From Arenicola marina (lineage: Eukaryota > Annelida > Polychaeta > Arenicolidae), in contig OZ025265.1 of the NCBI GenBank assembly GCA_964019135.1, forward strand, positions 23,163,143-23,227,142: 64,000 nt of DNA, in the 5' to 3' direction. Below the pieces are notes generated by a model. That model was not told the DNA's origin. It saw only the letters and a program-made list of their open reading frames with translations, and did no database searches. The stretch's first letter is position 1. Every line of letters starts with the position of its first letter. This document shows positions 1,929 to 43,880 of this stretch, in pieces. Position numbers and translations under genes: made by a program.

Positions 1929-4184
1929 GTAAGTCAGGACGCTTCCGCCGGTGCAAAAAAAATAGTTCCGGTGAAAGCACGTGGTGCGGCGTATGATACG
2001 GTGTACGATAAGCGTCAAAAGCTACTAACGCGTTCCATGGCGGCCATAACAATTTAGATAAGTTCTCTGCTGAGCATGATACAGGGTCCTCGGTGTGTTT
2101 TTGTTTTCTAATATTATTTACTTCCTTATTTACTGAGGTTGATTTTTTGCTGACCTTTAACCATGCTTCTGTGATACGCGGTATCAATCATTCTACGGGG
2201 GCGTTGTTTCATCCGGTTCTGCGTTATACTTCAATGCCCTCAACCCGTTTAATGCCACTACCGCACTTAGTAGGAACTCACCCCCCCCCCCCCAACCTCC
2301 CTCCCCGTCCATTAATTTTCGACCGTGTTATCTCCTTAAAAATCCTTATTTTCTTCTTCTCCGCAGATTTCTTCATGGCGGCATTGCCTTTCGTTCTAAT
2401 TGTTTTGCATTTTTTAAGGACTCCACGAGCTGGCGACGTGCATTACCCTCAACACAAGTAATATATCGGTTTCGTGTTTGCAGGTTTGAGCACATGTATA
2501 TATTTGAACCGGATGAAGATTCCATCTCATCTTCCTACCTCGGTCGGCTCTTGCCACCGTGGCGACATGCTTGGATTAGAATGCCTAGGGTTGTCCTACT
2601 TAATCAAATGAAGCGATGTCCTATCTGACAACCATTGATCAGCTGTTGGGGCCGCCGACAGAACATTTCTCCTCCGTAGAACACGGGATCATCTCGAGGC
2701 ATAGTGGGTAGCGCGTTAATCGGCTATTGTCGAAATGTTCATCCGGTAGGCCAGTCTTCCTGTGGACCCAATTGGCCTAAATACATGTATTTCATTAATG
2801 GTTGGCATTACACTGCTTGTCCTGCCCCGCGGTCAATGAGTGGGTTCTGTGCAAAGGTGTATAGTTGTGCCACATACATATTCCTTTCCTTGTCTTTCTG
2901 AGCAAGGAGTACCACAGGGGGCCGGGGGGGGGGGGGCTTATACTCCCGAAAAAAAGGCTTCTGCTCGCCTTCACCCTTGGTATTGTCACGAGATGACTTT
3001 CGGAGGGAGGTGAAAATCACTCGTTTTCGATGGCACACTGCATATCCAATGGGACCGCCCGTCTGTGTGTCTTACAGAGTGTAGCGACCCTTTCTGGGGG
3101 TGCGCCAGTGGCGACCAGTGTATCTACTCAGATTACCGCTGCGATGGGGAGAGCGACTGCGAAGATCGGTCAGACGAGGATCTCAACATGTGTGGTGGGT
3201 ATTCCAATAGAATGTGATTACGTATCGTCAGTATGTCATTAATAAATGATGATCTGTGGTTGGTACGCCATTAACGTTGCATGTCGAGCTCTTTCCCGCC
3301 AAAAACTAAAGAAGCCAAATTACAAATAACAATCAGTCCTTGGATCATCCAAGATTTCTTTTGTCTATATTCCACACATGGCCGACTGCCAAATGGAGTC
3401 TCTTAGCTTTGACCGTCATATCAATTTACCACAGGTTTTCAACTTAGAGGTAAACGTCCCGGGATAGACGCGTTTGCTACATCACAGCCGAAACAGCGGT
3501 GTTTATTAGGTTTCTGAATTTATAGAATGAAACAATCGAGTTTTCCACAAATTGTGATATATATGTCGCCTCGGCTTAGTTTTACCGCGAAAGAGCTTAA
3601 TATGCAACTTTAATGTCTGATAACAAACGTTGTGCTTTCTAATTAGTGTGATCACGTGCGATAAATTTGACAATAAAGTGCAAACTTGTGTAATATTAGT
3701 CTGTCACTCCTTGGTTTCATACATTGTGTACTAGCGCGTTATTGTGTGTGTTATTTTGTCCCATTCGTTGCTGAATTCCCCATGTACCCGCATCTTATTT
3801 TGCCAGTACCGCATGTCCTTGCTCACACCCCCATAGACTACTTTAATTCATCCGTGGCTTCGCGAATGGTTGGGGGCCTGGCCCCCTTCCACATTGACTT
3901 GCCATTGCTTATGACGAAATACCTTAACTGTACACTTACTTATGTACTTAAGTTTATTAACCATGTAACCCAGGTTTGGCTTGGATGTTTGTGTTACTAG
4001 CTCACTATTTAAGATGATTTCTTTATCGCGACGATGGTTCGGCTAATGTATCCGGATATTTTATAACTGTTTATCGAGAGTTTCGTGGACTTACATAATC
4101 GCTTTGCCATTAAAGGCTTACTGGTGGTATATTGGGAACTTTAATTTCCTCTTGTGTTACTGTATTACATATCAGATATTATTA

Positions 4185-4229
<45 letters not shown>

Positions 4230-7200
4230 CATGGAAGGAAATGCGCTTTAAGCAAATCACTTCTTTTTTGTTGGTGACAAAGTCACGTCACGGCTTGATT
4301 TTAATTGTTGATGAATATCAGCCCCACTGATATTTTGATATGTTGCAATATTTTTTTTTATGTTACCTTATATAACGAATATACTTGTGATATCATGGGA
4401 CGTGACGTATGTACCGGACCGACTTTGAAATATCAATCTTCTCATTCATTTTTGTTGTTGCCCGAATTATGCAGTCATGCACATAAACATAGCATATACA
4501 ATATCAATTTTTCGTTAATTTCATGATATGTTTTGTTTCCGCAACAGCGCAATTCACTTGTTTTGACGATTACTTCGACTGCGCGTCGAATCGAAGGTTG
4601 ATGCAGACGCCATATTGTATCCTCAACGAGTGGTTGTGCGACGGCGAAAGCGACTGCCATGATGGGGAGGATGAGGTTAGTGACACAACGGCTCGCCAGA
4701 TGGCGCACGGTGATAGTATGGAGATTGGAAGAACAATGAGGAGGAGGGCGACTGCCCCCTGGTGGGGGATCGTTACAACAGGGCGATCCAATCTGTGAGG
4801 GGCCTGCCCGGGAGTTCAGTGGGCTGGAGCGCTCGCATTGAGTGCTCTGGCCACCTGAGAGCCTAACGGCGCGTGGATCGATGGTTCGCGCCCCGCTGTG
4901 GCCATGTCTGTGTGGTCGGAGGATAAATATGCCATGTCCTTCTTTCGCAAAGAGTAAGGGGTTACCCCGGAGACACGGCTCCACTCTCCCTTCCTTCTCC
5001 CATTGATGCGATATGACCAAAAGTGGTTAAAGCGTCCTGAATATACAACCAACCAACCAATCTGTGACATACGGGGCATTAGTGCAAGCTTGAGCTAATT
5101 GGTTGCTTAGAGTCTGCCCAACATTCCTACAACCGGACGATAAAGCAATGTGTAACTTGGTACACGTAACGTCTGCAAACTTCTATCAGCTCCCAAGGAA
5201 AAATGGCTACTTAAAAAATGTCGAAATTCTGTTAACTATGTATGTTAATATTCACTGACAGCATGCCTTGCATAATATTTAAACTGGACGACAAATAACT
5301 GTATAGATAACGTGTGTCGTTGAATGTAAATTCATTTCATTTTATCCTTTCATCCTACGTTTTCCCACGATCAAGTCTTTGAGTGCAAAACAGCGACACA
5401 AAGAAAACGCCAACTTATTTCATCATTTCAGGCTCCAGAGTTATGTGGCGGAGGAGGGGGTGATGAGGGGGCCTGCAGTGAGGATGAGTTCCAGTGTTCT
5501 CCGGGGGTCTGTATTCCAAAGTCCCTCTATTGTGACACCAAAATTGACTGTCCCGACGGCAAAGACGAAGATTGTGGTGAGCATTTTTTGTAAATTTAAA
5601 TTCAAATGGGCTGCTTTTACAGTTGCTTTTCTTTACAATGGTAAGGGCACAACTATTTTTTTTTACATAGTGTGTATGTTCGTTGTTATTTACAATTATG
5701 ACAATTACGTCAATTAATATTATTAAATCCTATTCAACGTTAAATCTATAATTTAAATTAAATGAAGGTTTCCTTAAGAGTTTATATTATCTTTGTGGAA
5801 TTTCTGAATATATTGAATACATTTGTTCAATTCTTTTTTTCATGCAGCCCAATTCAGCTTTCATTTGCAATGTTTCATGTTCCGTGTTTTATAGTGCACC
5901 CAACTTGTAAGCCGGATGAGTTTAAATGCTACTCCGGCCAATGTGTCCTTCTGTCGTCCACGTGTGACCAACAGCGTGATTGTCGCGATGGAACAGACGA
6001 AACCGATGACCTGTGCAGTAGGTGTCACGTGACGTCATGCATCTCATTATCCTTCTTATCACATAAGGTTGCTTTCATCATTCTCCGTATACAATTGTTG
6101 TTGTCACTAATTTTCGTATACAATTTTTGTTGTCATTATTCTCCGCATATAATTTTTGTTTTCATATCCCCGTTGCGATGTTTTTGTTTTCATTATGCCC
6201 CGTAAACAAGTTTTTGTTTATTAACCTCCAATTTAGTTTTCATTGTCTGTTTTGTTTTCGTTATACATTTTTTTCTCCATGATCCTCCTCATGGAAACGT
6301 TGTTTTCTATGATCCACCGTATAGCATTTTGTCATACTAGGATTTGAAGTAATGTACCCTTGTTGGCCATTGTATAAAGTCTTCCAGTTACACTTTGTCA
6401 TGCTAGGATTTGGAGTAATGTAGATTTGTTGGCCATTGTAGAACGTCCTCCAGTCTCACTTTATCATGTTAAGATTTGGAGTAATGTAGACTTGTTGGCC
6501 ATTGTAGAACGTCTTTCAGTCACACTTTGTCATGTTAGGATTTGGAGTAATGTAGACTCGTTGGCTATTGTAGAACGTCTTCCAGTCACACTTTGCCATG
6601 TTAAGATTTGGAGTAATGTAGACTTGTTGGCCATTGTAGAACGTCTTCCAGTCACACTTTGTCATGTTAGGATTTGGAGTAATGTAGACTTGTTGGCCAT
6701 TGTAGACCGTCTTCCAGTCACACTTTGCCATGTTTGGATGTGGAGTAATGTAGACTTGTTGGCTATTGTAGAACGTCTTCCAGTCACACTTTGCCATGTT
6801 AAGATTTTGAGTAATGTAGACTAGTTGGCCATTGTAGAAAGGCTTTCAGTCACACTTTGCCATGCTAGGATTTGGAGTAATGTAGACTTGTTGGCCATTG
6901 TAGAAAGGCTTCCAGTCACACTTTGCCATGTTAGAATTTGGAGTAATGTAGACGTGTTGGCCATTGTAGAACGTCTTCCAGTCACACTTTACCATGTTAG
7001 GATTTGGAGTAATGTAGACTTGTTGGCCATTGTAGAAAGGCTTCCAGTCACACTTTGCCATGTTAGGATTTGGAGTAATGTAGACTTGTTGGCCATTGCA
7101 GAACGTCTCCCAGTCACACTTTGTCATGTTAGGATTTGGAGTAATGTAGACGTGTTGGCCATTGTAGAACGTCTTCCAGTCACACTTTGCCATGTTAGGA

Positions 7201-10200
7201 TTTGGAGTAATGTAGACTTGTTGGCCATTGTAGAACGTCTCCCAGTCACACTTTGTCATGCTAGGATTTTGCGTAATGTAGACTTATTGACCACTGTAGA
7301 GCGTTCGGCCACCTGTGCTCCGGGCTACTACCAATGCAGCAACGGAAAATGTGTATCGGCCTCGACCGCCATGTGTAACGGCATGAACGACTGTGGGGAC
7401 GGCGGTGGCGGCAGCGACGAAGACAAAGATATCTGCGGTAAGAGAGGGGCCGCCCCGGTAGCTCAGAGGGTTAGAGCGCTCGCCTTGACTGCTCTGGCCA
7501 CCTGAGAGCCTAGCGGCACGTGGATCGGTGATTCGCGCCCCGCTGTGGCCATGTCTGTGTGGTCGCAGGATAAAGATCCCATGTCCTTCTTCGCAAAGAG
7601 TAGGGGGTTACCCGCGGGGACATGGCTCCACTCTCCCTTCCTTCTCCCATTGACGCGATGTGACAAAAAGTGGTTAAAGCGTCCTGAATATACAACCAAC
7701 CATCTGCGGTAAGAGATTATTCATGACATTGCGAAAAGTTTTCCAAGTTAATCGAGTTTCCAGATCATGTTTCCATTGAACAAAGTGACCATCCTTGGCC
7801 TTAAACTACCCGTTTATCATGCGACTAAAATAATATTGCATATACATGATTATGAACAGTGAACATTATCAGACCAGGCAAATTTCATGACTGTCACCCA
7901 CGCTTGGATAAATTTTGGTAAATCCAACATGGCGCACATTCGTCCCAGAAACCCCGGAACCGTAAGCGCGTCACAGTGGCCGAACTCGATTGTGCATTGG
8001 CGAACTTACGCTTGTTCGACTTCAGTGCGCGTGGTCGCACAAGGTCATGATATGCCTTGACTGGTTCTTTCATTAATTACTTGCAGGTAGCGTGGGTACG
8101 AACGAGTGCAACGACACTTCTAAACATGTGTGCCAACACAACTGCGTCGATCAATCATTCGGCTATCGATGCAGCTGCCTGACTGGATACACTCTGCAGG
8201 GGGACAAAACATCCTGCACAGGTGAGACAATATAACAGAGCATATGTATATGACACGTTGTGCCCAAGACCAAAAACACAAACCCGCAAAAATCATTTCC
8301 GTATCCAAATAGGTCGCAGTTGTTCGTCTGATCAATGGCGATAGTTATGCATTAAAATGCATGGTGGGTTCTTATCACTATAATTGTTGTCTGTGGCCTG
8401 ATATCATCCTTTTTTGTCTGTATATACAAATAAGTTAGTTGTATTTAAACATTACAAGAAAGAAATATGTGTCAGTATTGCTTGGATAATAATGAGTGAA
8501 TGTCCTTCTGAAGAAGCCAAATTCTCTAATGTTCCATGTGTGGTATGCCATGCTGATATTGTTAATATTTTATGCTATATTAAGAAGCAACGTGGTTCTT
8601 TTTAAGACATCTATCGCGCGTCTTCCTGGTATAGTGGTTGGCGCACTTACGATCGCAGATCCTTAGGGGCGGGGTTCGATTCCGGGCCCGGACACCTAAT
8701 CTGGGGGCATGTCTCTTCCAGTTTATCCTCCATCGGCCCGGGAGGTTCCTTAATTGGGACAGTTGAGCCCCCGTGTGCACCTAAATCACGCTAAAACTGT
8801 AATATACTGGTCATTATGACTTATAGGGTTTGGTAGGGTATGATGAATGTTTTGTGATGGTCATACACGAGGTGGAGTTTGGATTGTATACTTTCAGTGG
8901 CCACCAGGTGTACTGCCTATAAATTAAAGAGAGTGTGACTTGCGATAAAGCCTTCTTCTTCATGTGTTACCCATGCTGTCTGGTTGTACTGGTTCTTGGT
9001 CATGAGATACAAAGGCCGTAAAGGGATAACATAATTCTATAAATGTAAAATACATGACTAAAGAATTGAATTCATTTCTTTTCAAGACACCGATGAGTGC
9101 ATGGATCAGATTGGCGCCTGCAGCCAGACGTGCGTTAATACCGTCGGGTCCTTCTCGTGTCAGTGTACGCCAGGCTATACCTCGATCGATCGGACAACAT
9201 GCGCGCCGTCCGTTAGTAAGTATGAAGCTCCGTCAGTCGTAGGGGCCGCCCCGATAGCTCAGTGGGTTAGTGCGCTCGCCTTGAGTGTTCTGGCCACCTG
9301 AGGGTCTAACGGCGCGTGGATCGCTGGTTCGAGCCCCGCTGCGGTCATGTCTGTGTGGTCGCAAGATAAAGATCCCAGGTCCTTCTTCTTCCGCAAAGAG
9401 TAGGGTGTTACCCCCGGGGACATGGCTCCACTCTCCCTTCCTTTCTGCCATTGACGCGATATGACCCAAAGCGGTTAAAGCGTCCTGAATATGCAATCAG
9501 CCAACCATCCTCTGGTGGTTCTGCTTATTACGCGATATGTAATAGCACGTGACTTAGCACGGCAAAGCTAGCCAAGGTCATCGCAGGTCGTTATATAGGT
9601 CAGTCGATATTATCTTAATATGTGACTATGGGTAGCCATCATGAATTTTATCACATACATCTCATGGTTATCATAGTTACCACCTATTGTGACATCAAAT
9701 GACATTTGTTTATCATGGTTGCGTCAAATGACATTAACTTGTTTATCATGGTAACATCAAGTGATATTCGTTCGTCATGGTTACATCAAATGACATTTGT
9801 TTATTATGGTTACATATTTTATCTTTTTAAATTCTATTTACATGCATTTAAATATATGTGGTATTTCATTATCATTATTATTATTTGCCAGACACGCGTC
9901 CCTACCTGATTTTCTGCAATAAATACTACGTGCGGACGATGAACCTGGACGGATCGAACTTCGAGAAGCTGCCGACCACCCACGAATATACACACGTCAT
10001 CGACTTCGATTACAAAGACAAGAAGTTGTATTTTGCCGACGCCGACCCTAAGCAACCGAAGCTCAAGCGAATGGCGTTCAACGGGTCCAACATAGAGACG
10101 ATTGACATCCACCAGGCCGCTGGGACGGAAGGCCTGGCGGTCGACTGGATCGGACGGTGAGCTGCTTGAACCGTCGGCGCCGCACCAAGGCAACTGGGGG

Positions 10201-16200: not shown

Positions 16201-19200
16201 GATGGTTCGCGCCCCGCTGTTGCCATGTCTGTGTGGTCGCAGGATAAAGATCCCATGTCTTTCTTCGCAAAGAGTAGGGCGTTACCCCTAGGGACATGAC
16301 TCTCACTCTCCCTTCGTTTTCCCATTGACGCGATATGACCAAAAGTTGCTAAAGCGTCCAGAGTATACAACCAACGAACCGCTCCTTCGCTTAGACCGCT
16401 GTTGTCGGCCGGGGGCAATCGCTAAGAACCTGCAAAACGATCTAATCAGTCATAATTTCTACCAAAGTAGTTAAATGTACAAGTAACCAGCGGAATTAAT
16501 ACATGCTCAGTGTATAATTTGGTAAATGGCATCAAAGAACGAACTCCTCCTTTGTTCATCTAATACCGTGTGTTATGTGGTATAGGCTGGGTCCCCGACA
16601 CTGATTTGTAGCGGTGCATGTCCTCATATCAGTTTGCACAGCGCCGCCTGGCGAGCAAGCGTGCTCATGTATTGAGGAAGCAGTCGACACCAGGGATATA
16701 ACGCTGCCATTATCGTAATGAGTCGAAGGCAACGAGTGCGCCACCAAGCGGCCGAGGATTAAACTAATGCCGAGTGCGCATGCGTGGCTGAGTCATCCCG
16801 AGCGAGCGGTGCGTGGTTCGAGCCCCACCCGCCTCCCCGGAATATAACCTTGTCTAACCATGTTTAGCCCAGGACCTTTCGCAAACGTGGTCCCAAAGAC
16901 AATTCAATCTTTTCTTTCACCCTCCCCATTAGGTGCACATCGGGCCAGTGTATCCCCAAAACCTGGGGCTGTGACGGGGATAACGACTGCTCAGACTCCA
17001 GCGACGAATCGCCGCTGAACTCCCAATGCAGTAAGTCTGAAGCATATCACGATCACAAGCAATGTCGACTTGTTGTCATTGCTATTGGTGGCGTAGTTTG
17101 ACACGTATGTGCATCATCTCTGTGGTTAATTGTATCCGTATACCCCCCACCCACTGTCGGGTTTTTCTGAGACAATCGATTTAATAATGCTGGAGATACT
17201 TATTTTACAACTTCTCTTACACGGGGAATAATAATTTATTGCAACAGTATAAAATAATAGACATTATTGCGTTGTATATATATAAAAATTATATCAGATA
17301 TTAGATAGCCCCCCCCCATTCCCCCCCCCCTCCCCCATCCCATTACATTGAAAAGAAAAGTGTTATTTCGCAAATGCCAAAACGGCCTTCCATACATATG
17401 TCCACCAGCCAATTGCACCAGAGACGACCGTTTCCTTTGTGATAATGGAGAGTGTATCCCGAAGCTGTGGGTCTGTGACTGGGATGACGATTGCGGGGAC
17501 GCCAGTGATGAGCCTATGGCTGAGTGTTGTGAGTGCTTCAATCAACTACTTTAATGGCAATGCCAATCAAAGATGTAACGTTAGGTTCATAAAACAAAGA
17601 TGCTCCTTGTGCTAAGAGCAGAATGAAGCATCTAGGCGACTTTCACGATAATTTTGGAAATCATTAATTGAAATGTATGTCATTAAAGTTGTAAAGAGAC
17701 ATATTGTATAATTGCATAAGTCATTACGCGGATCAGGAGTGAAAATGACATAAAATTTGAGGAGGTATAATGCGTATTTTTTCATGATCCTTGGGCATAA
17801 TGTGACTCTTGTACAACATAATTGTTTTCGTATAATTAAACACGATTTTTGACACGATAATTTTATTTGTTTGGATTACGCGATTTTTCATGTATCAATT
17901 ATGCGATTTTTCTTAGTGTACGCGATGTGATTTTGTTTTTGTATACAGTTTGATTTGTTTTCTTGCATACAGTGATTTTTTTCTTGTATACAGTGGGATT
18001 TTTTTCTTGTATACGCTATGATTTTTCGCTGTTATACACCTGTATTGTGATTTTGGGCTGTTTATACACACACATGTATTGTGATGACCTAATCTGGTGA
18101 CTTTGTGACCTGATGACGTCAGACGCCAACGTGTCCTGCCCGGCCGGCTGGGTGCAGTGCGAGTCCCACTACCGCTGTATACCGAGCACCGCCCTCTGTG
18201 ATGGGGACGACGACTGCCGTGATAACAGCGACGAGAAACCCGACAAGTGTCAAGTGGCGTGCAACGAGGGCGAGTTCAAATGCAATGCAGACACTGGCCC
18301 GAAATGCATCCCGCAGAGATGGGTGTGCGACTTCCACGCGGACTGCGACAATCAGGCGGACGAATCAGAGACGCATTGCCGTAAGTTGAAGCAATAGGTT
18401 CTGTAATTTTTACATTATTAATCTCTTAATTCTCTATGTCAAATAAGTATATTCCGTCTTGAATTTAAACCCTGAAAGCCTGTGGGCTTGTGTGGAGAGA
18501 AGCAAATTTGTTTACCGGAGCAGAAGTTGGTGGCCGGCTTTATATCCCTGCGCGCATCTTCGCTGCTGTGCTGTGTGACGTCGACCGCGGATCATCGCTA
18601 GGACTTCGGCGCGCGATAAACTAGTCCGCACAGTTTTATGTTAAAATTGTTGTCTTACAGACTCAACGAGATATAAAACATATATGCTTCATAATTTTGA
18701 GATACTTTTAGTCTTGATTCAAAAATGTAAAAATCTAAGATGGCGTATGTAAGTAGGCTGCTTTAATTGTTAATTTCGGTACTAGACTGTTCCAGGCTGT
18801 CAATCATTCACTGGCCCGACCTGCATTCCGTTTCTTTTTATAAGAATCGTATTCACCAAAATAATTTGACAGATAGCACTTCCTAAGTAGGTCCAATTTA
18901 ACAAGATATACACATTTGCCCAGGCCGTCGATTCACGCTTTACAATGAGTAATATCCGCCTGGTGCCGTTTTTAGCGTTGAGAAGCCACCCTTTATATGG
19001 CGTTACTGCTGCTTTTATCTGATCACGTGGTGAATAAACGTCTTTCACGTGCGTTATGTCCAACTTTTCGGACAAACAAAGCAGCATGTCACTTTCTTAC
19101 CAGTTTCAGACTTGAGTACTTCGCACTTGTACTTAGCACTAACTCCTGCCAAGTGGGTCTCACATACGGGCATTCAAAGAGAAGGTGTTCAATAGTTGCC

Positions 19201-22200
19201 GACGAAAGTGAGAAGGCAACATATAGGTTTCTTTGTCCCAGGGGCCGGTCCGCTAGCTCAGTGGGCTAGAGCGCTCGCATTTAGTGCTCTGGTCACTTGA
19301 GAGCCAAACGGTACATGGGTAGATGGTTCTGTGGCCATGTCTGTGTGGTCGCAGGATAAAGATATAATTTTCTTCTTTGCAGGGACATGTCTTCACTCTC
19401 CCTTCTTTCTGCCTTTGACGCAATATGACCAAAAATGGTTAAAGCATCCTGAATACACAACCAACCATCTTTGTCCCGTGTGCACAAGTTGGCCTAAGCC
19501 GCGCAGCAGTAAACATTCATTTCTGTTTTCCCTGTCTCCTCTGTCACACAGAGGGCAGACACCGCAATTGTTCCGAGGATGAGTTCCGGTGCTACAACGA
19601 GAAGTGTATCAGGAATCGTTACCTCTGTGACGGAGACGACGACTGCGATGATGGCTCAGACGAACATTCCTGCGGTAAGTAATGACGTCATAGTGACTCG
19701 GATGATGTCATAGTGAATCGGATGATGTAATAGTGAATCGGATGACGTCATAATGACTCGGATGATGTCATGGTGAATCGGATGACATCGGGATGACTCG
19801 GATGACGTCATAATGACTCAGATGACGTCATAATGACTCTGATGACCATTATGACTCTAGTGACGTCATAATGACTCGGATGAAGTCATACTGACTCGAA
19901 TAACGTCATAATGACTCGGATGACGTCACAATGACTCGGATGACGTCATAATGACTCAAATGACGTAATCATGATCCAGATGACATCGTATAGTGTTGTA
20001 TGCATTTGGTTATAATTGCACACTGTTTCGAAATATGGGTATTTAATAATTAGCACAATAGCGGACTACAACGCCAACATTTCATTTCATTCCTAAATTG
20101 GATAAATGACTTGATGTGGCGCGGCTTTGTTTTATATATATATGTTAGCCAAAGTACATATATTTTTGCCCAAACCTTGCATTTATTCAATGCTCTACCC
20201 GTATACGTTAAAGTGTTTTTATGTATAGGCTCTGTAACGTGTGGACCGGACAAGTTCGAGTGCACCGACGGCTCGTGCCTGGACTCCCGCCAGCAGTGTG
20301 ATGGTATGATTGACTGCTCGGACGCTAGTGACGAGAGTGCCTGCCCCACTCGCTTCCCCGGGGGGCTCTTCTGCGACGCCAGCCGGGAGTTTACCTGCAC
20401 GAACACGGTACGAACCATGGTCTCATTATCAGCAGGGAGTTCGCCTGCAATAACACGGTAGACATGGAACACGCCATTGGGGGTATGTCTGTGGTAACAC
20501 GAATACGCACATTACGCATTTGTATTGGTATACGTCCCGTTATTTCTTTGGCCGGGTATATATGATGCGAGTGAAACATCATATATGGAAGACGTGTGTC
20601 CCATGATATAGTGCAGGCGTATGTCCCATCATATAGTGCAGCCGTGTGTCTCATTATATATTACAGGCGCGTGTCCCATTATATATTACAGGCGTGTGTC
20701 CCTTCATATAGTGCAGCCGAGTGTCCCATCATATAGTGCAGGCATTTGTCCAATCATATAGTACAGGCTTGTGTCCCATCATATAGTGCAGCCGAGTGTC
20801 CCATTATGTAGTGCAGGCATGTGTCCCATCATATAGTGCAGGCGTATATCCCATCATATAGTGTAGGCATGTGTCAAATGATATAGTGCAGGCGTGTGTC
20901 CCATTATATAGTGCAGGCATGTGTCCAATCATATAGTACAGGCGTGCGTCCCTTCATAAAGTGCAAGCGTGTGTCCTATCATGCAGTGCAGGCGTATATG
21001 TCCCGTCATATAGTGCAGGCATGTGTCAAATGATATAGGGCAGGCGTATGTCCCACCATATAGTGCAGCCGAGTGTCCCGTCATATAGTGCAGGCATGTG
21101 GCCAATCATATAATGCCGGCGTGTGTCCCATCACATAGTGCAGGCGTGTGTCCCATCATATAGTGCAGGCATGTGTCAAATGATATATTGCAGGCGTGTG
21201 TCCTATTATATAGTGCAGGCATGTGTCCAATCATATAGTGCAAGCGTGTGTCCCATGATATAATGCAGGCGTGTGTCCGATCATATAGTGCGGCTGTGTG
21301 TCTCATTGTATATTACAGGCGTGTGTCCCATTATATATTACAGGCGTGTAGCCCATCATATAGTGCAGCCGAGTGTCCCATCATATAGTGCAGACATTTG
21401 TCCAATCATATAGTACAGGCTTGTGTCCTATCATATAGTGCAGCCGAGTGTCCCATCATATAGTGCAGGCATGTGTCCCATCATGTAGTGCAGGCGTATA
21501 TCCCATCATATAGTACAGGCGTCCGTCCCTTCATATAGTGCAAGCGTGTGTCCTATCATATAGTGCAGGCATGTGGCTAATCATATAGTGCAGGCGTGTG
21601 TCCTATCATATAGTGCAGGCATGTGGCTAATCATATAGTGCAGGCGTGTGTCCCATCATACAGTGCAGGCATGTGGCTAATCATATAGTGCAGGCGTGTG
21701 TCCCATCATATAGTGCAGGCATGTGGCTAATCATATAGTGCAGGCGTGTGTCCTATTATATAGTGCAGGCATGTGTCCCATCATATATTGCAGGCATGTG
21801 TCCAATCATATAGTGCAGGCGTGTGTCCCATCATATAGTGCAGGCATGTGTCCAATCATATAGTGCAGGCGTGCATCCCTTCATATAGTGCAAGCGTGTG
21901 TCCCATGATATATTGCAGGCGTGTGTTCCGAAGATCTTTGTGTGTGACGGGGATGATGACTGCAAGGACGACTCCGACGAGAGCCCAGACGCCTGTATGT
22001 CCATCCCATGCGACCGCGAGGCCGACTTCCGGTGCAGTAACAAACGTTGTATCCCAGCCTTCCTCAAGTGTGACAACGCCGACAACTGCGGGGACAACTC
22101 AGACGAAGTAAACTGTAAGTGGGAGATTCTGCAACCGTGTGATCAATTGCAACCAAAGTTAACTGGGTATTTAACCGTGTGATCAATTGCAACCAAAGTT

Positions 22201-25200
22201 AACTGGGTATTTAACCGTGTGATCAATTGCAACCAAAGTTAACAGGGCATTTAACCTTGTGATCACTTGCAACCAAAGTTAATTAACTCGGTAATTGTTT
22301 TTCACACGTACATGCGTGTATTGCTCAGTGAGTTAGAGCGCTCGCTCTGGCCAATCTGATGCAATAATCGTTACAGATCATAATGCGCTCAGTTCCCCCA
22401 CATGCGCTAAGAGCAGAGATGGCAGAACTCGCATGTTAAATTTAATAACAGTGTACATCCAATAATATACGTGAAAAATAACCGCGCCAACTTTGCGAAC
22501 ATAATAGTGAATATAGTATTATTATAATGTGTATGTATGATGAATCGTGGTCATAGCTGTGATGACATACGGTGTGCATTGATTAATATGGCATCTTGCC
22601 GAGGACACATATGGGCCAGACTAAGATTTGTTCACCCTCTTGTCGTTGAATTTCTCAGGTACTAACTCCAGATGTGGCGAGGGACAGTTTACGTGCGCCA
22701 ACGGACGGTGCATCTCTAAAGGCTACCTATGCGATAGACGGAATCATTGTGGAGACAACTCAGATGAAACTGGCTGTGGTAAGTGACTTCCCAGAGTTAC
22801 AGGGCTGTGGTGATATGAGGTGATATCTCAGAGGTACAGGGCTGTGAGGAGTGACATGGGGTGATAACTCAGAGGTACATGGCTGTGGTAAATGACGTGT
22901 TTGTATGTAGTGAAAATGCCGCCGAAAAATATTCATGTCTTTTACCTTTGGATCCCCTCGACCATCCCCCAACCCCCCTTTTCCCTGCTCTCCGACAAGA
23001 ACACATGTATGCAACATTTAAACATGTAATGCAATTATTCCGTGGCTTTTAATATTTCATGATATGATCGTTGGTAATAGCTATATAATAATCCTTATCT
23101 CAGCCTGAGCTGCCGATCAAAAGGTCGTGGGTCGTGGGTTCCAATCCCCGCACCTCCATCTGGGGCATGTTTCACCAAACTCCATGTCATAGTCCTGCGT
23201 AGTTACTTGGCCCAATATATATATATATAGATGGAGGTGCGGGGATTCGAACCCACGACCTTTTGATCGGCAGCTCAAATATATATATATATATATATAT
23301 ATATAGCCTACGTGAGTATAAAAGCGGCCTAAAGCACAAATAATTGTCTTTCTTTGCAGCCTTGCAAGCGGGCACCTGTGCCACCAATAACACTTGTCAT
23401 CGTCAGTCACAGACCTGCTCGGACATCATACTGCCGTTTGGCAATCCAGGACACAAGTGTGACTGCGTATCCGGTTTCGAACCCAGTGAAGATGGCGGGA
23501 AATTTTGCAAAGGTAATGGGAGTTTTTTTTTGGTGGAAAGTAAATGTGTTTTTTTTGTGCAAACAATATTTTATTAACTATTGGCAAACAGTGGAACATA
23601 CTTTATTAATGCCTCTAGTACATTGTTGACGTGGTAACATTTTGAAATATATCAGACTATGTCGTAATCTACACTAGAAAATAGTGTCATTTGTTGCTGG
23701 AAAACGATGTGATTGTTTATTGTTTTTACGCTGTATGTTTCAATTGTATGTGTGCTTTTCCTTTCCGAATATGCATAGCTTAGTAAACAAAACATCTTTT
23801 GATAATACATAGAACTGGTGTGGAATGGTCTGTGGGTTACCGCGTTCGGCTGTGTGACAAACAGTATACCAGGCCGGCCATCGTGCCGGAGTTCGGGGAC
23901 TGGTCTGGAATGGTCTAGGGGTTAGCACGTTGAGCTGTGTGACAAACAGTCTGCCAGGCCCACCATCGTGCCGGAGTTCGGGGAGTGGTCTGGAATGGTC
24001 TAGGGGTTAGCACGTTGACCTGTGTGACAAACAGTCTGCTAGGCCGGCCATCGTGTCGGAGTTTGGTGGCTGGCCTGGAATCGTCTGGGGTTAGCACGTT
24101 GGGCCGTTTCACAAACAGTCTGCCAGGCCCGCCATCGTGCCGGAGTTCGGGGACTGGTCTGGAATGGTCTAGGGGTTAGCACGTTGAGCTGTGTGACAAA
24201 CAGTCTGCCAGGACCACCGTCGTGCCGGAGTTCGGGGAGTGGTCTGGAATGGTCTAGGGGTTAGCACGTTGGGCCGTGTCGCAAACAGTCTGCCAGGCCC
24301 ACCATCGTGCCAGAGTTCGGGGACTGGTCTGGAATGGTGTAGGGGTTAGCACGTTGGGCCGTGTCACAAACAGTCTGCCAGGCCGGCCAACTGGGTCTCC
24401 GCTGTACAAATGCCTTCCATATAAAGATTCCATGTCCTCCTTCGAACAGAGTTATTAGGGGAGTTACCTGCGATTCCATGGCTCGGCCCTTGCTCCTCCA
24501 CTTTGAGCTGGGGTCTCACACCGTGGCCCAGTCGGTAGCACGTTGCAGTCCCTATTGTCCAGTGTTCTCCTCTGATACCGGTGTGCAGTTCTAACCTCAC
24601 ATGCGCAAATGCCTATGGTTGCGCAAGATATTTAAATCCCATGTATGTCTTCGCTGACGCAGCTATGCAGATAACATTGATGATTAAATTATTCACAAAC
24701 TGACCAACCAATCGTTTGAACCCTTTCAGATAAGGACGAATGTGCTTCAGTTAAGACCAACACTTGTCCCCATCAGTGTCTTAACGTCGATGGTGACTAC
24801 AAGTGTCAATGCCTCCCTGGCTTCGACGGCGCCGTCAACGGTTTGCGGTGTACCCCGAAAGGTAATACTTGTTTTTTTGGGAACGATTTAATGTTTGGCT
24901 GGCAACATGTCTATCTGTTGCCTTCATTCTGTCTTTTTCTTTCGTCTATATATTGTTTTTCGTGTACGGTTTATAAAACGGTATGATACTAATTCATATA
25001 GATGTAACATGTATAGCTGTTTCGCAAAATTTATGTTCTTTTTGTACTCCGCCAATTGTATGAAGATATTGTCCTAGGTCCTAGGTTCGAGTCTCACGCT
25101 GGGCGCCTAATCTCGGGCATGGTTAACCATCCATACTTCGGGGCCGCCCCGGTAGCTCAGTGGGTTAGAGCGCTCGCCTTGAGTGATCTGGCCACCTGAG

Positions 25201-31200: not shown

Positions 31201-34200
31201 ACTTACGCTTACATGTTTATCGGGTATTAGGAAAAGCAATAGAGATTCCTATATGGAAGATGCTGAACTGCATTCAGCTCCATTTCGTTGTCACGTGAGG
31301 TTTCTTGACCTTCTTTTGTCTTCATATCCTCGCAAGTGGTGCAAAACACCCGCATTTTACCACCACGTGTTTTTTATTCACAGCACAAACCCCGTGCGAT
31401 GGAATGAAGTGTAACGCGCTGTGCCTGCTGGGAAGGAATGGCGGGGCCAAGTGCAGCTGCCCGGAAAACACGCGACTGTCGACGGCCAACGCATCGCATT
31501 GCATTATGGGTAAGTGTCTATTGTTATCGCATATGTGCTTCACATGGTGGGGCGTCTACTATGATTTTTTTAATTGCTTAATCTTTTGATAAAATCTATA
31601 TTTCAAAAACATTCACTGTCCAGTCATGGAAAGTAAGACTTAGTCATCAGCGAATATTAAAGTCAAAGATTACTTAGTCAAATATTAGTGATGTACAGAG
31701 TATGGATGAGCTAGTGCCATTAGACATTTGTATAGTTGCTGAAAACGTGGTTGTTTTCTGGCGTCTATTGTTACTGGCCCGGTTTTATGTTCTTCTTCGC
31801 ATGTCCGTAATTGTCGAAGAAACTGTAAATATAAACAAGAAAAGAAGTCACTTGTATAGTTATTTGAACTACTGATTGTAAGTATGTTATTGCTTAAAGA
31901 AGTCGCTGAAAATCCGACCAAAAGAACTGGGTTTGATTCCCTGATGCGACATGTAACTCCCGTTATGTTTAACGTATATCATTGTCACTCATTATCCTGA
32001 TTCATTCAAGGGACATCCTTCAATAACAATAACATATCAGATGTTTAACCTAACATTTGATGATTCATTCTATGTATCGGATGACTCCCAACATATGCTG
32101 TTTGTAATAATGCACCCTGCGTAAACTGGAAAGATACAATGTAACTGTTACATAGCCATGGTTGTAACGTTGTTTTATGGATCAACGTGCGCGTAACAAA
32201 AAGATATCTTGCAAGAGGCATTCTGATCATTACTATATCGGGGTATTAGTACCCTATAATCCCCCGTTCAAATTCATATTCTTTTCTTCGCAATTGAATT
32301 GTTCTTTGGACATGGTTCATCCTCACCTTGAATCTCCCCATTGTCGCGATATCCTTTAAGCCACCAGATCAAGCCTACTGTTGCGCCGTCGTTGCGAATT
32401 TATGCGGCGTGAAGAACCGCGAGTGCGTACTAAAGCGTATCTATCAATATCCAAGCGGTAAGCTTCTTGGGCCTGCACCGCACAACGCATGGACACGCAC
32501 TGGCTGTTCTATGGCAAGGCCTGGGCCTGCTGACCGTTACGCATCGGGACGCAACGGCGGTTTAAAGGATAAGACAAACAAAGGTTAAGGCCCTCTACGT
32601 AGACCAAACCATCGTTCTCTCCTTGGTTGATGGCAGCAGGAAATGCAGTATGATAGCCATGTTTATTTCAATTGTCTAATGTTAATGTTTATTTGGCAAC
32701 ATTAAATATTGCCACTGGTGCCCTCTTTACTTCATGGTGTCCAGGCTGATAAATAGGTTCTGGGTTCGAATCCGGGCCATCAATTCTTCACCCCGGGATG
32801 TCCTTGACCTCTTTTAGCCATTGCGTACACAAGCGCGGCTTAAACACCAACTGGTTTCATTTTCTTGCATCCTGCATCGGCCCGGGAGATCCCGGCCCGT
32901 TAGCTCAGTGGGCTAGAGCGCTCGCCGTGAGTGCTCTGGCCACCTGAGAGCCTAACGGCACGCGGATCGGTGGTTCGCGCCCCGCTGTGGCCATGTCTGT
33001 GTGGTCGCAGGATAAAGACCCCATGTCCTTCTTTGCAAAGAGTAGAGGGTTACCCCCGGGGACATGGATCCATTCTCGCATTGACGCGATATGACCAATA
33101 GTGTTTACATGTTTGTATTTCACCAGGTGTGGTTCCTCCTGCCATGGCACTCCCCGAGCTCTGCAGCTGTCCGAATCGCGAACGCTGTGTGTATGTCAGC
33201 GGCCACCCCCAGTGTTTCTGCCCCCCAGGTAAGCCACAGCGTTCCTGTCCCCCAGGTAAGCCACAGTGCTCTTGCCCCCCCCCCGTGCGCTTGTTTTCTC
33301 ATACAATCACCGCCTGTGTATAATGCATTCCTTGTGCAATGAGGTATGTCAACGAAAAGAGGTGCATGACCCTGCTCGATGGCATCCCTTTAAGGGGAAC
33401 CTCTAAGGAGGGGAAATGATGTTTAAATAAATACATGTTTTAAATGTCACAAAGGATTAGTGTGTCGAGGGTAGCCGGTATGGTTTTTGCGGTTGTGTGG
33501 GGCGTGGGGTGCTGATCTGATGGAAAGGTCTACATTGGAAGTGACTAGGGGGAGAGGTGGGGGGAGGGGGGGGGGGCAAATACGTGCGCCCTGATTATGC
33601 AGTTTGCATGTATAATTTTGCTGGTTTTTGCTTGTTTTTTTCTGAGAAGGGAGTAAGCATAAAAAATGGCAAAATTTTGTGCAGAGGTATGGTTATTGGT
33701 ATGGTTATGATGAAATTGCGCAGATATGAGAATCACGTTTTTTGTTTACCACAAACATGTGCTTTGATGTCACTACAGTGTTCGTACCGTACAAGAATCG
33801 TGTATACGAGCGATTGTGAAATATCTTGAACCCATAAGTTCTAAGCGTTTTAGGTCGCGTATTTAATCTACCAGTGTAAAAATCTGCCGTATGGTGTCGG
33901 CTAACTCATGTTAACTATGACTAACAATCGTTTTAAATATAATTAACGCATAATTTCAGCGAGTAGAAGGTCTAGGAATTCCAGCATAATTAAAATTATA
34001 ATCTTTGTACAATTTTATTTTTTTACAATTAATATAATCTTTGTACAATTTTTTCACAATGAATAAAAAAATTGTAAAATTTGTTTACAATTAAATGCGA
34101 ATGCGTAATGCATTTTATTACGTTTCCCTTAGGTTTCCACGGCCCCAGTTGCCAGTTCACTATCACTCATCCTGGAAGCACCATCACCCCCCCACAAACC

Positions 34201-42659: not shown

Positions 42660-43880
42660 TTAAAAGAAACCCCACGCCCGGCTAATCAAGCGTATACTAA
42701 ACACCCAGGCCCGTTTAATGAAGGGTTAAATGAACACCCACGCCCGTATAATGAAAGGGTAACTAAACACCCAGGCCCGGTCTAATGAAAGGTTGAATAA
42801 ACACCCAGGCCCGGCTTATGAAGAAGTGACTAAACACTCAGGCCCGGTCTAATGGAGGGTTGAATAAACACCCACGCCTGGCTGATAAAGGGTTAAATAA
42901 CCATCCAGGTCTGGCTAAAGAAATGTTAACTAAACACCCACGCCCGGCTAATGAAGGGTTAAATAAACATCCACGCCCGGCTAGAGAAGGGTTAAATAAA
43001 CACCCAGGCTATGGCCAATAAAGGGTAACTAAACACCCACGCCCGGCTAATGAAGGGTTAACTAAACACCCAGGCTATGGCCAATAAAGGGTAACTAAAC
43101 ACCCACGCCCGGCTAATGAAGGGTTAACTAAACACCCAGGTCTGGCTAATGAAGGGTTAACTAAACACCCAGTTCTGGCTGATGAAGGGTTAAATAAACA
43201 CCCAGGTCTGGCTAATAAGGAGTTAAATGAACACACACGTCCGGCTACTGAATGGTTAAATAAACGCCCACGGCTGGTTAATGAAAGTTTAAATAAACAG
43301 CCACGCCCGGCTGATGAAGGGTTAACTAAACACCCACGCCCGGCTAATGAAGGCTTAAATAAACGCCCACGGCTGGTTAGTGAAAGATTAAATAAACACC
43401 CAGGTCTGGCTGATGAAGGATTAAATAAACACCCAGGTCTGGCTGATGAAGGGTTAAATAAACACCCAGGTCTGGCTGATGAAGGATTAAATAAACACCA
43501 ATGTCTGGCTGATGAAGGGTAACTAAACACCCACGCCCGGCTAATGAAGGATTAAATAAACACCCAGGTCTGGCTAATGAAGGGTTAACTAAACACCCAG
43601 GTCTGGCTGATGAAGGATTAAATAAACACCCAGGTCTGGCTAATAAGGAGTTAAATGAACACACACGTCCGGCTACTGAATGGTTAAATAAACGCCCACG
43701 GCTGGTTAATGAAAGTTTAAATAAACAGCCACGCCCGGCTGATGAAGGGTTAACTAAACACCCACGCCCGGCTACTGAAGGCTTAAATAAACGCCCACGG
43801 CTGGTTAATGAAAGATTAAATAAACACCCACGGCTGGTTAATGAAGGGTTAAATAAATGTCCACGTCTGGCTCGTAAACG
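42660..43880 (+). repeat. 33-bp satellite-like array, ~37 copies
   Basis: Units of TAAACACCCACGCCCGGCTA plus ATGAAGGGTTAAA repeat over ~1.2 kb, with GTCTGG, GGCTGG and TATGGCC variants and a larger block duplication (43,130-43,330 resembles 43,570-43,770). The 33-base period gives long antisense open frames that I treat as artefacts. Confidence 0.95.

Follow-up and report, generated by a model that had tools for sequence, protein, structure and literature searches.

The stretch of DNA that we analysed (hereafter the window) is a 64-kb piece of the 867-Mb Arenicola marina genome, C20:23163143-23227142. Its + strand carries the C-terminal part of a gene of the LDL-receptor family, with LDLa, EGF and LDLR class B domains recognized by Pfam, whereas the N-terminal part falls outside the window, and one intron of this gene ends in a 25-bp minisatellite that runs across the 3′ splice junction into the following exon. 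Judged by its domains and best structural match, the gene is LRP2/megalin-like: among solved chains, the three LDLa repeats around the array found their best match in LRP2/megalin (residues 3799-3917 of 8em4_A). In addition, an open reading frame (ORF) at 36.7 kb (36673-36918), which had no Pfam match in that frame, encodes FSNPMYDTV, a peptide that contains an NPxY motif and is a candidate for the NPxY tail of LRP2/megalin.

Tandem Repeats Finder (TRF) described the array, at 20577-21926, with a period of 25, 53.9 copies, 80% matches, 0% indels and a score of 1686, in good agreement with the approximately 54 copies given by the first-pass annotation of this DNA. Counting back from the exon, we listed 53 full units spanning 20592-21918, of which 43 are distinct and one is 27 bp long, and partial units stand at both ends of the array. 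In the unit, an exon-like part of 11 bases (GCGTGTGTCCC) is followed by an intron-like part of 14 bases (ATCATATAGTGCAG), with CAG at the end in 46 of the 53 cases and AG in 47. A single motif had previously been placed in every unit; ATATAGTGCAGGC is in fact present only 21 times and ATATAGTGCAG 28 times in the array, and the real last unit reads ATATATTGCAG. The CAG of that final unit ends at 21918 and is the putative acceptor. To judge from the units, the array has grown in blocks, including the duplication of a 26-unit block: 20617-20866 and 21269-21518 are identical at 234 of 250 bases at an offset of 652, which is the best offset, and the other placements of this block that we tried gave at most 212 of 250.

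The array overlaps the downstream exon by 8 bases at the TRF boundary, and bases 1-11 of this exon are identical with the unit consensus at 10 of 11 positions, within one base of the roughly 12 coding bases that had been proposed to belong to the array. When the same 11 bases were compared with individual units (37 units, in 25-bp steps from 21894 back to 20994), they matched at a mean of 8.2/11, with at least 9 matches in 16 of the 37. This likeness ends after base 11, the next 11 exon bases averaging 2.1/11, and 2,000 random 11-mers of intron composition averaged 2.8/11 with a maximum of 8. Because the matching exon bases encode Ala-Cys-Val-Pro, the Cys of which is part of the LDLa framework, the array was probably derived from the exon.

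The exons on either side of the array are predicted to join at 20407/21919 in phase 0 and would remain in frame across the splice. The spliced segment of three LDLa repeats is 375 nt long and matches LRP2 3799-3917 with 116.6 bits (120 query versus 119 chain residues), and the 53 amino acids flanking the junction match LRP2 3834-3885 with 46 bits. Use of the last unit, which the first-pass annotation had taken for the acceptor itself, would thus give an LRP2-like protein, and the boundary of the array does include the junction, running to 21926 and so past 21918/21919. Near the other end of the intron, the tail of the preceding exon and its donor recur once in degenerate form (Table 1); use of this copy would shift the frame.

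A paralogue of the gene is found on the same chromosome (C20:28.36 Mb), with 47-50% identity in the matched protein stretches, and it carries an intron at the same codon boundary and also in phase 0 (CDNT/ICIA versus NT/ACVP in the window gene). This intron is 183 nt long, with the donor GTAAGT, the acceptor TTATTATTACTACTCTTCAG and a good pyrimidine tract, and contains no array. Since the paralogue has the same intron without the array, the intron predates the gene duplication and was not made by the array, and the exon and its acceptor therefore preceded the array; by this comparison, the array has replaced the 3′ end of an old intron. We also considered that the intron itself might have arisen through duplication at a boundary, the mechanism suggested for globin introns of amphioxus; the splitting of an LDLa repeat within the 375-nt segment and the presence of duplications at both intron edges would agree with such a gain. 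However, the ordinary intron at the same place in the paralogue contradicts a gain at this site, which we accordingly rejected and regard as barely conceivable.

In addition, an inverted second copy of the gene is present on the same chromosome (L009-L011, C20:23046001-23076000), with a distance of about 125 kb from array to array; this may be an allele placed twice by the assembly or a paralogue. Its first unit and last 60 intron bases are identical with those of the window copy, and it has about 24 units versus 53, the 26-unit block and three more units being absent according to our reading of the unit lists. Array length thus differs between the copies, whereas the exon-side end of the array does not. 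About 3.95 kb of different sequence, with ends that are inverted by eye, is found inside the unit of the second copy that corresponds to 21494. Exon identity between the copies is 94.7-100% in 20 of 21 exons and 90.8% in the array-following exon (21919-22114), where 12 non-synonymous and 3 synonymous codon changes were found; the other exons of equal length together show 26 non-synonymous and 8 synonymous changes, with some phases uncertain. The array-following exon therefore diverges by 9% although the 60 intron bases preceding it are identical, which could be due to conversion, to a relaxation of constraint or to mutation in the vicinity of the array.

To examine the upstream acceptors, AGs were counted from 20 nt after the donor, and scores were derived from a simple weight matrix of splice-site base frequencies. 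The intron contains 107 AGs including the real acceptor, and 102 of these lie within the array. Thirty-nine of the 106 upstream AGs are in frame and 37 of them meet a stop before the exon, and every out-of-frame AG of the window runs into a stop upstream of the exon end. In the second gene copy, the donor of which was set one base short in this count with no effect on the AGs counted, two out-of-frame AGs (80 and 50 nt upstream) have no stop up to the exon end. The proposal that only the final copy is productive thus holds for 104 of the 106 upstream AGs, which lead to a stop before the exon end, but not for the nearest two, which are in frame and stop-free and would begin the exon at 21895 (+24 nt, RVSHDILQ) or 21889 (+30 nt, 10 residues). 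These could serve as alternative acceptors, adding 8 or 10 residues within the LDLa repeat; in either gene copy each of them is in frame and stop-free, and the last 60 intron bases are the same in the two copies. However, 21895 scores 1.2 bits, and the ranges of the LRP2 match differ in length by one residue at most, and we consider such use improbable.

In local strength, the last copy does not stand out from the others (see below), and its pyrimidine content, 0.62, shares ranks 6-9 from the bottom among 23 acceptors. The sole branch-point-like motif (YTNAY) of the last 60 intron bases is located in the penultimate unit, where its A precedes the junction by 35 nt. As this unit ends in GCAA, the nearest cognate copy of the acceptor has been lost. 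It might be supposed that the array acts as a splicing rheostat, in which array length and copy strength set the correct joining, so that allele length tunes receptor level. The 102 AGs of the array (the real one included) could indeed compete, seven upstream array copies outscore the real acceptor, and copy number differs approximately twofold between the gene copies. However, the exon is open in both gene copies despite 53 and about 24 units, and in amphioxus, where tandem repeats across exon–intron boundaries are termed mirages, regular splicing is reported not to seem disturbed (PMC3087553; PMC3902484); a rheostat of this kind is, in our view, unlikely.

Taken together, we favour, with a probability of about 0.83, a boundary-seeded intronic minisatellite (a mirage) in an LRP2/megalin-like gene, the last unit of which would be the working acceptor while the others are excised. 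According to this proposal, a tandem duplication would have taken in the last 14 bases of the old phase-0 intron together with 11 bases at the start of the exon and would have grown to 53 units, with the duplication of the 26-unit block among the later steps. The copy adjoining the exon body would have stayed the working acceptor, this terminal copy being kept by selection on splicing, and the remaining units would be intron and cut out. As strength does not mark out the last copy, its choice probably depends on exon definition, exerted by the exon that follows and the donor of that exon, and on a local branch point, presumably that of the penultimate unit, some 35 nt before the junction. Wrong products would be lost, since nearly all transcripts from earlier copies would carry stops. 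The array itself is most likely unstable and largely, or even wholly, without function.

Several results weigh against this proposal. The real acceptor scores 6.6 bits with our simple matrix and is tied for 9th to 12th among the 107 AGs. The support from LRP2 for the junction rests on match ranges and not on a residue-by-residue alignment of the best domain, and the gene model is partial and approximate; the array-following exon is its 17th within the window, the exon start at 18131 lacks an AG and was set by domain, and several exon lengths break the phase rule. The placement of the arrays speaks both for and against the proposal. The window contains 37 merged arrays of period at least 10, and 19 of these are in modelled introns; with a control restricted to introns, 2 of the 19 touch an exon edge (0.06 expected, P 0.0014), 3 are within 10 nt of one (0.66 expected, P 0.024) and 5 within 25 nt (1.56 expected, P 0.012). 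This excess was seen only with the intron-restricted control, in which one exon start had been set with the array in view, and a free shift over gene and exons reverses the sign, with 3 boundaries inside arrays versus 9.9 expected and 6 within 25 nt of arrays versus 11.7 expected. Because arrays avoid exons, the free-shift control shows the opposite sign, and we rejected the free circular shift as an unfair null.

The last of these points concerns other 25-bp arrays. A whole-genome search with the array returned 32 matches, most of them weak. One of these is the array and two fall in the second gene copy, which leaves 29 elsewhere; five outside loci (L004-L008) were inspected, and 24 further rows, some overlapping the inspected loci, were left out. 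One common 23-bp minisatellite of different sequence occupies L005, L006 and L008, and L004 (C12) and L007 (C4) are 25-bp arrays of 89 and 43 copies, which at the best rotation have 16/25 (L004) and 15-17/25 (L007) bases in common with units of the window. Matches as good were given by 0.03-0.07% (L004) and 0.03-0.6% (L007) of shuffled units in 20,000 trials, fractions that overstate the likeness because both arrays were picked as the best whole-genome matches, and in a repeat-rich genome it may be due to chance. Such partial resemblance beyond shuffled units, together with the 79 TRF rows that mark the 64-kb window as minisatellite-rich, would suit a satellite of separate origin, possibly belonging to a broader 25-bp family, that spread to the exon and ends there by chance. 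Against this stand the in-register likeness to the exon (10/11) and the excess of arrays at exon edges, and we regard an independent origin as highly improbable.

Mirages have been described in the amphioxus genes Adh3 and the globins BflGb6 and BflGb9 (PMC3087553), and TnC and PGBD5 have been likened to them (PMC3902484). In the former report, BflGb6 has 6 and 3 units of 150-160 bp and differs in length between haplotypes, and Adh3 has units of 10-72 bp and is somatically unstable (PMC3087553). The present array resembles these in that it also spans an exon–intron boundary, in that many units carry a splice signal (CAG at 46/53 unit ends) and in that its length differs between copies (53 versus about 24 units on C20). 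As to the use of the authentic boundary copy in regular splicing, LRP2 homology and the paralogue agree on the predicted junction. It differs in its annelid host, in its 53 copies of a 25-bp unit, and in the existence of a paralogue that shows the same intron without an array, the intron thus predating the array. Tandem 3′ splice sites such as NAGNAG comprise few AGs, which are a few bases apart; the array is similar in its neighbouring, competing AGs, but here some 100 AGs are spread across 1.35 kb and almost all of them are unproductive. Finally, according to Rogers, as cited in PMC3087553, introns can be gained when AG/GT proto-splice sites are duplicated in tandem, and duplication across splice signals is a feature common to both cases, although here the intron already existed.

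No boundary-spanning minisatellite outside amphioxus was found in the literature by title and start of abstract, which is weak evidence of absence, and the array suggests that such repeats do occur outside lancelets. One genome here holds the state before (the 183-nt paralogue intron) and two states after (about 24 and 53 units). The spliceosome apparently passes some hundred AGs, many of them in a near-identical setting, and the choice of the last among many equal acceptors becomes directly testable. A wider reading, in which splice boundaries are preferred seeds of minisatellites genome-wide in this annelid, mirages are a general means of replacing intron ends by repeat arrays with the terminal copy kept, and array length modulates the splicing of some genes, is speculative and at present rather doubtful; if genome-wide seeding were true, mirages would not be a peculiarity of lancelets.

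Boundary-spanning copies were also sought elsewhere in the gene. Four of 46 model boundaries have such a copy scoring at least 30 in the neighbouring intron, namely the main array (73), a 66-bp array before exon 7300-7437 (71), donor 22778 (39) and donor 7437 (30), and control introns gave a maximum of 29 for any query. The boundary of the 66-bp array was tested with the exon start at 7282, later set to 7300. Its last unit is located at the acceptor TGTAG/AGCGT of exon 7300-7437, with weak likeness on the exon side and with an exon start (7300 or 7282) that was chosen with the array in view. The score of 39 at donor 22778 compares with a maximum of 18 in 44 control intron pieces. The copy at donor 7437 is better explained as the duplication flanking a dispersed repeat that was inserted at 7446-7700. 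In the donor-side array at 33210-33280, the second donor is in frame (+27) and donor scores are 11.2 at both 33228 and 33255; two donors of equal score could yield proteins that differ by 9 residues.

Table 1. Positions within the window of the minisatellite, its flanking exons and other boundary-associated repeats; a slash marks the splice junction
Feature	Position	Strand	Description
Exon before array	20229..20407	+	LDLa repeat and first part of next LDLa; donor AACACG/GTACGA; PF00057 in ORF 20054-20458
Degenerate copy of exon tail and donor	20431..20460	+	25/30 bases identical at offset 50 bp downstream of real donor
25-bp minisatellite	20577..21926	+	From TRF and unit lists; 11 exon-like and 14 intron-like bases per unit, mostly CAG-ended
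Penultimate unit	21869..21893	+	Ends GCAA; carries YTNAY motif
Last unit, putative working 3′ splice site	21894..21918	+	ATATATTGCAG; identical in second gene copy
Exon after array	21919..22114	+	Starts GCGTGTGTTCC (Ala-Cys-Val-Pro); remainder of LDLa and another LDLa; PF00057, two stretches
Second candidate acceptor array, same gene	6338..7304	+	TRF 66 bp × 14.7; units with TTGTAG/AACGT
Donor-side duplication	22751..22896	+	GGCTGTG/GTAAGTGAC; copy ending GGCTGTGGTAAATGAC 109 bp on; score 39
Donor-side array	33210..33280	+	TRF 27 bp × 2.6; CCCAG/GTAAGCCA repeated

A wider test covered 121 predicted LDLa exon boundaries (60 acceptors and 61 donors) in the window, the second copy and 33 other loci, some of them overlapping; being phase 0, the array's own acceptor was outside this set. 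Twelve of the 121 have a boundary-spanning local copy scoring at least 30, five of them in the window or second copy, and control scores reached 120 because related exons were among the controls. When the seven outside cases were re-inspected, one was clear, a 92-bp donor duplication at L028. The L029 copy, at offset 401, probably represents a duplicated exon nearby, and the two at L033 are likely to be false donors in a multi-domain exon; re-inspection of L036, L038 and L047 gave only the trivial self-match, leaving their boundary copies unconfirmed.

Other repeats in the window include the dispersed repeat mentioned above, at 7430-7716, about 8 bases past the donor, the flanking duplication of which copies the donor CTGCG/GTAAGAGA; it has relatives near 891, 4797, 9242, 13501, 16120, 25140, 29557 and 32892. 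A 20-bp array at 19682-19974 (ATGACGTCATAATGACTCGG, 14.8 copies) begins 7 bases into the intron of donor 19674. At 42663-43872, a 33-bp array of 36.7 copies holds open frames of 122-183 amino acids on both strands, with no gene evidence.

We also examined a mitochondrial contig (C762; 15,942 bp), on which the identified genes are all on one strand in the order nad4L, nad4, (tRNA-Val), nad1, nad3, nad2, cox1, cox2, cox3, nad6, cob, atp6, nad5. Pfam confirmed nad4L, nad4, nad1, nad3, cox2, cob, atp6 and nad5, and cox1 was found by family; the nad2 frame matched an antiporter family only, the nad6 frame had no Pfam match and cox3 was named by eye. Under code 5 the cox1 frame is free of stops, as it is under codes 4, 9, 13 and 24, and code 2 gives 5 stops. 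The gene order is presumably that of the annelid ground plan.
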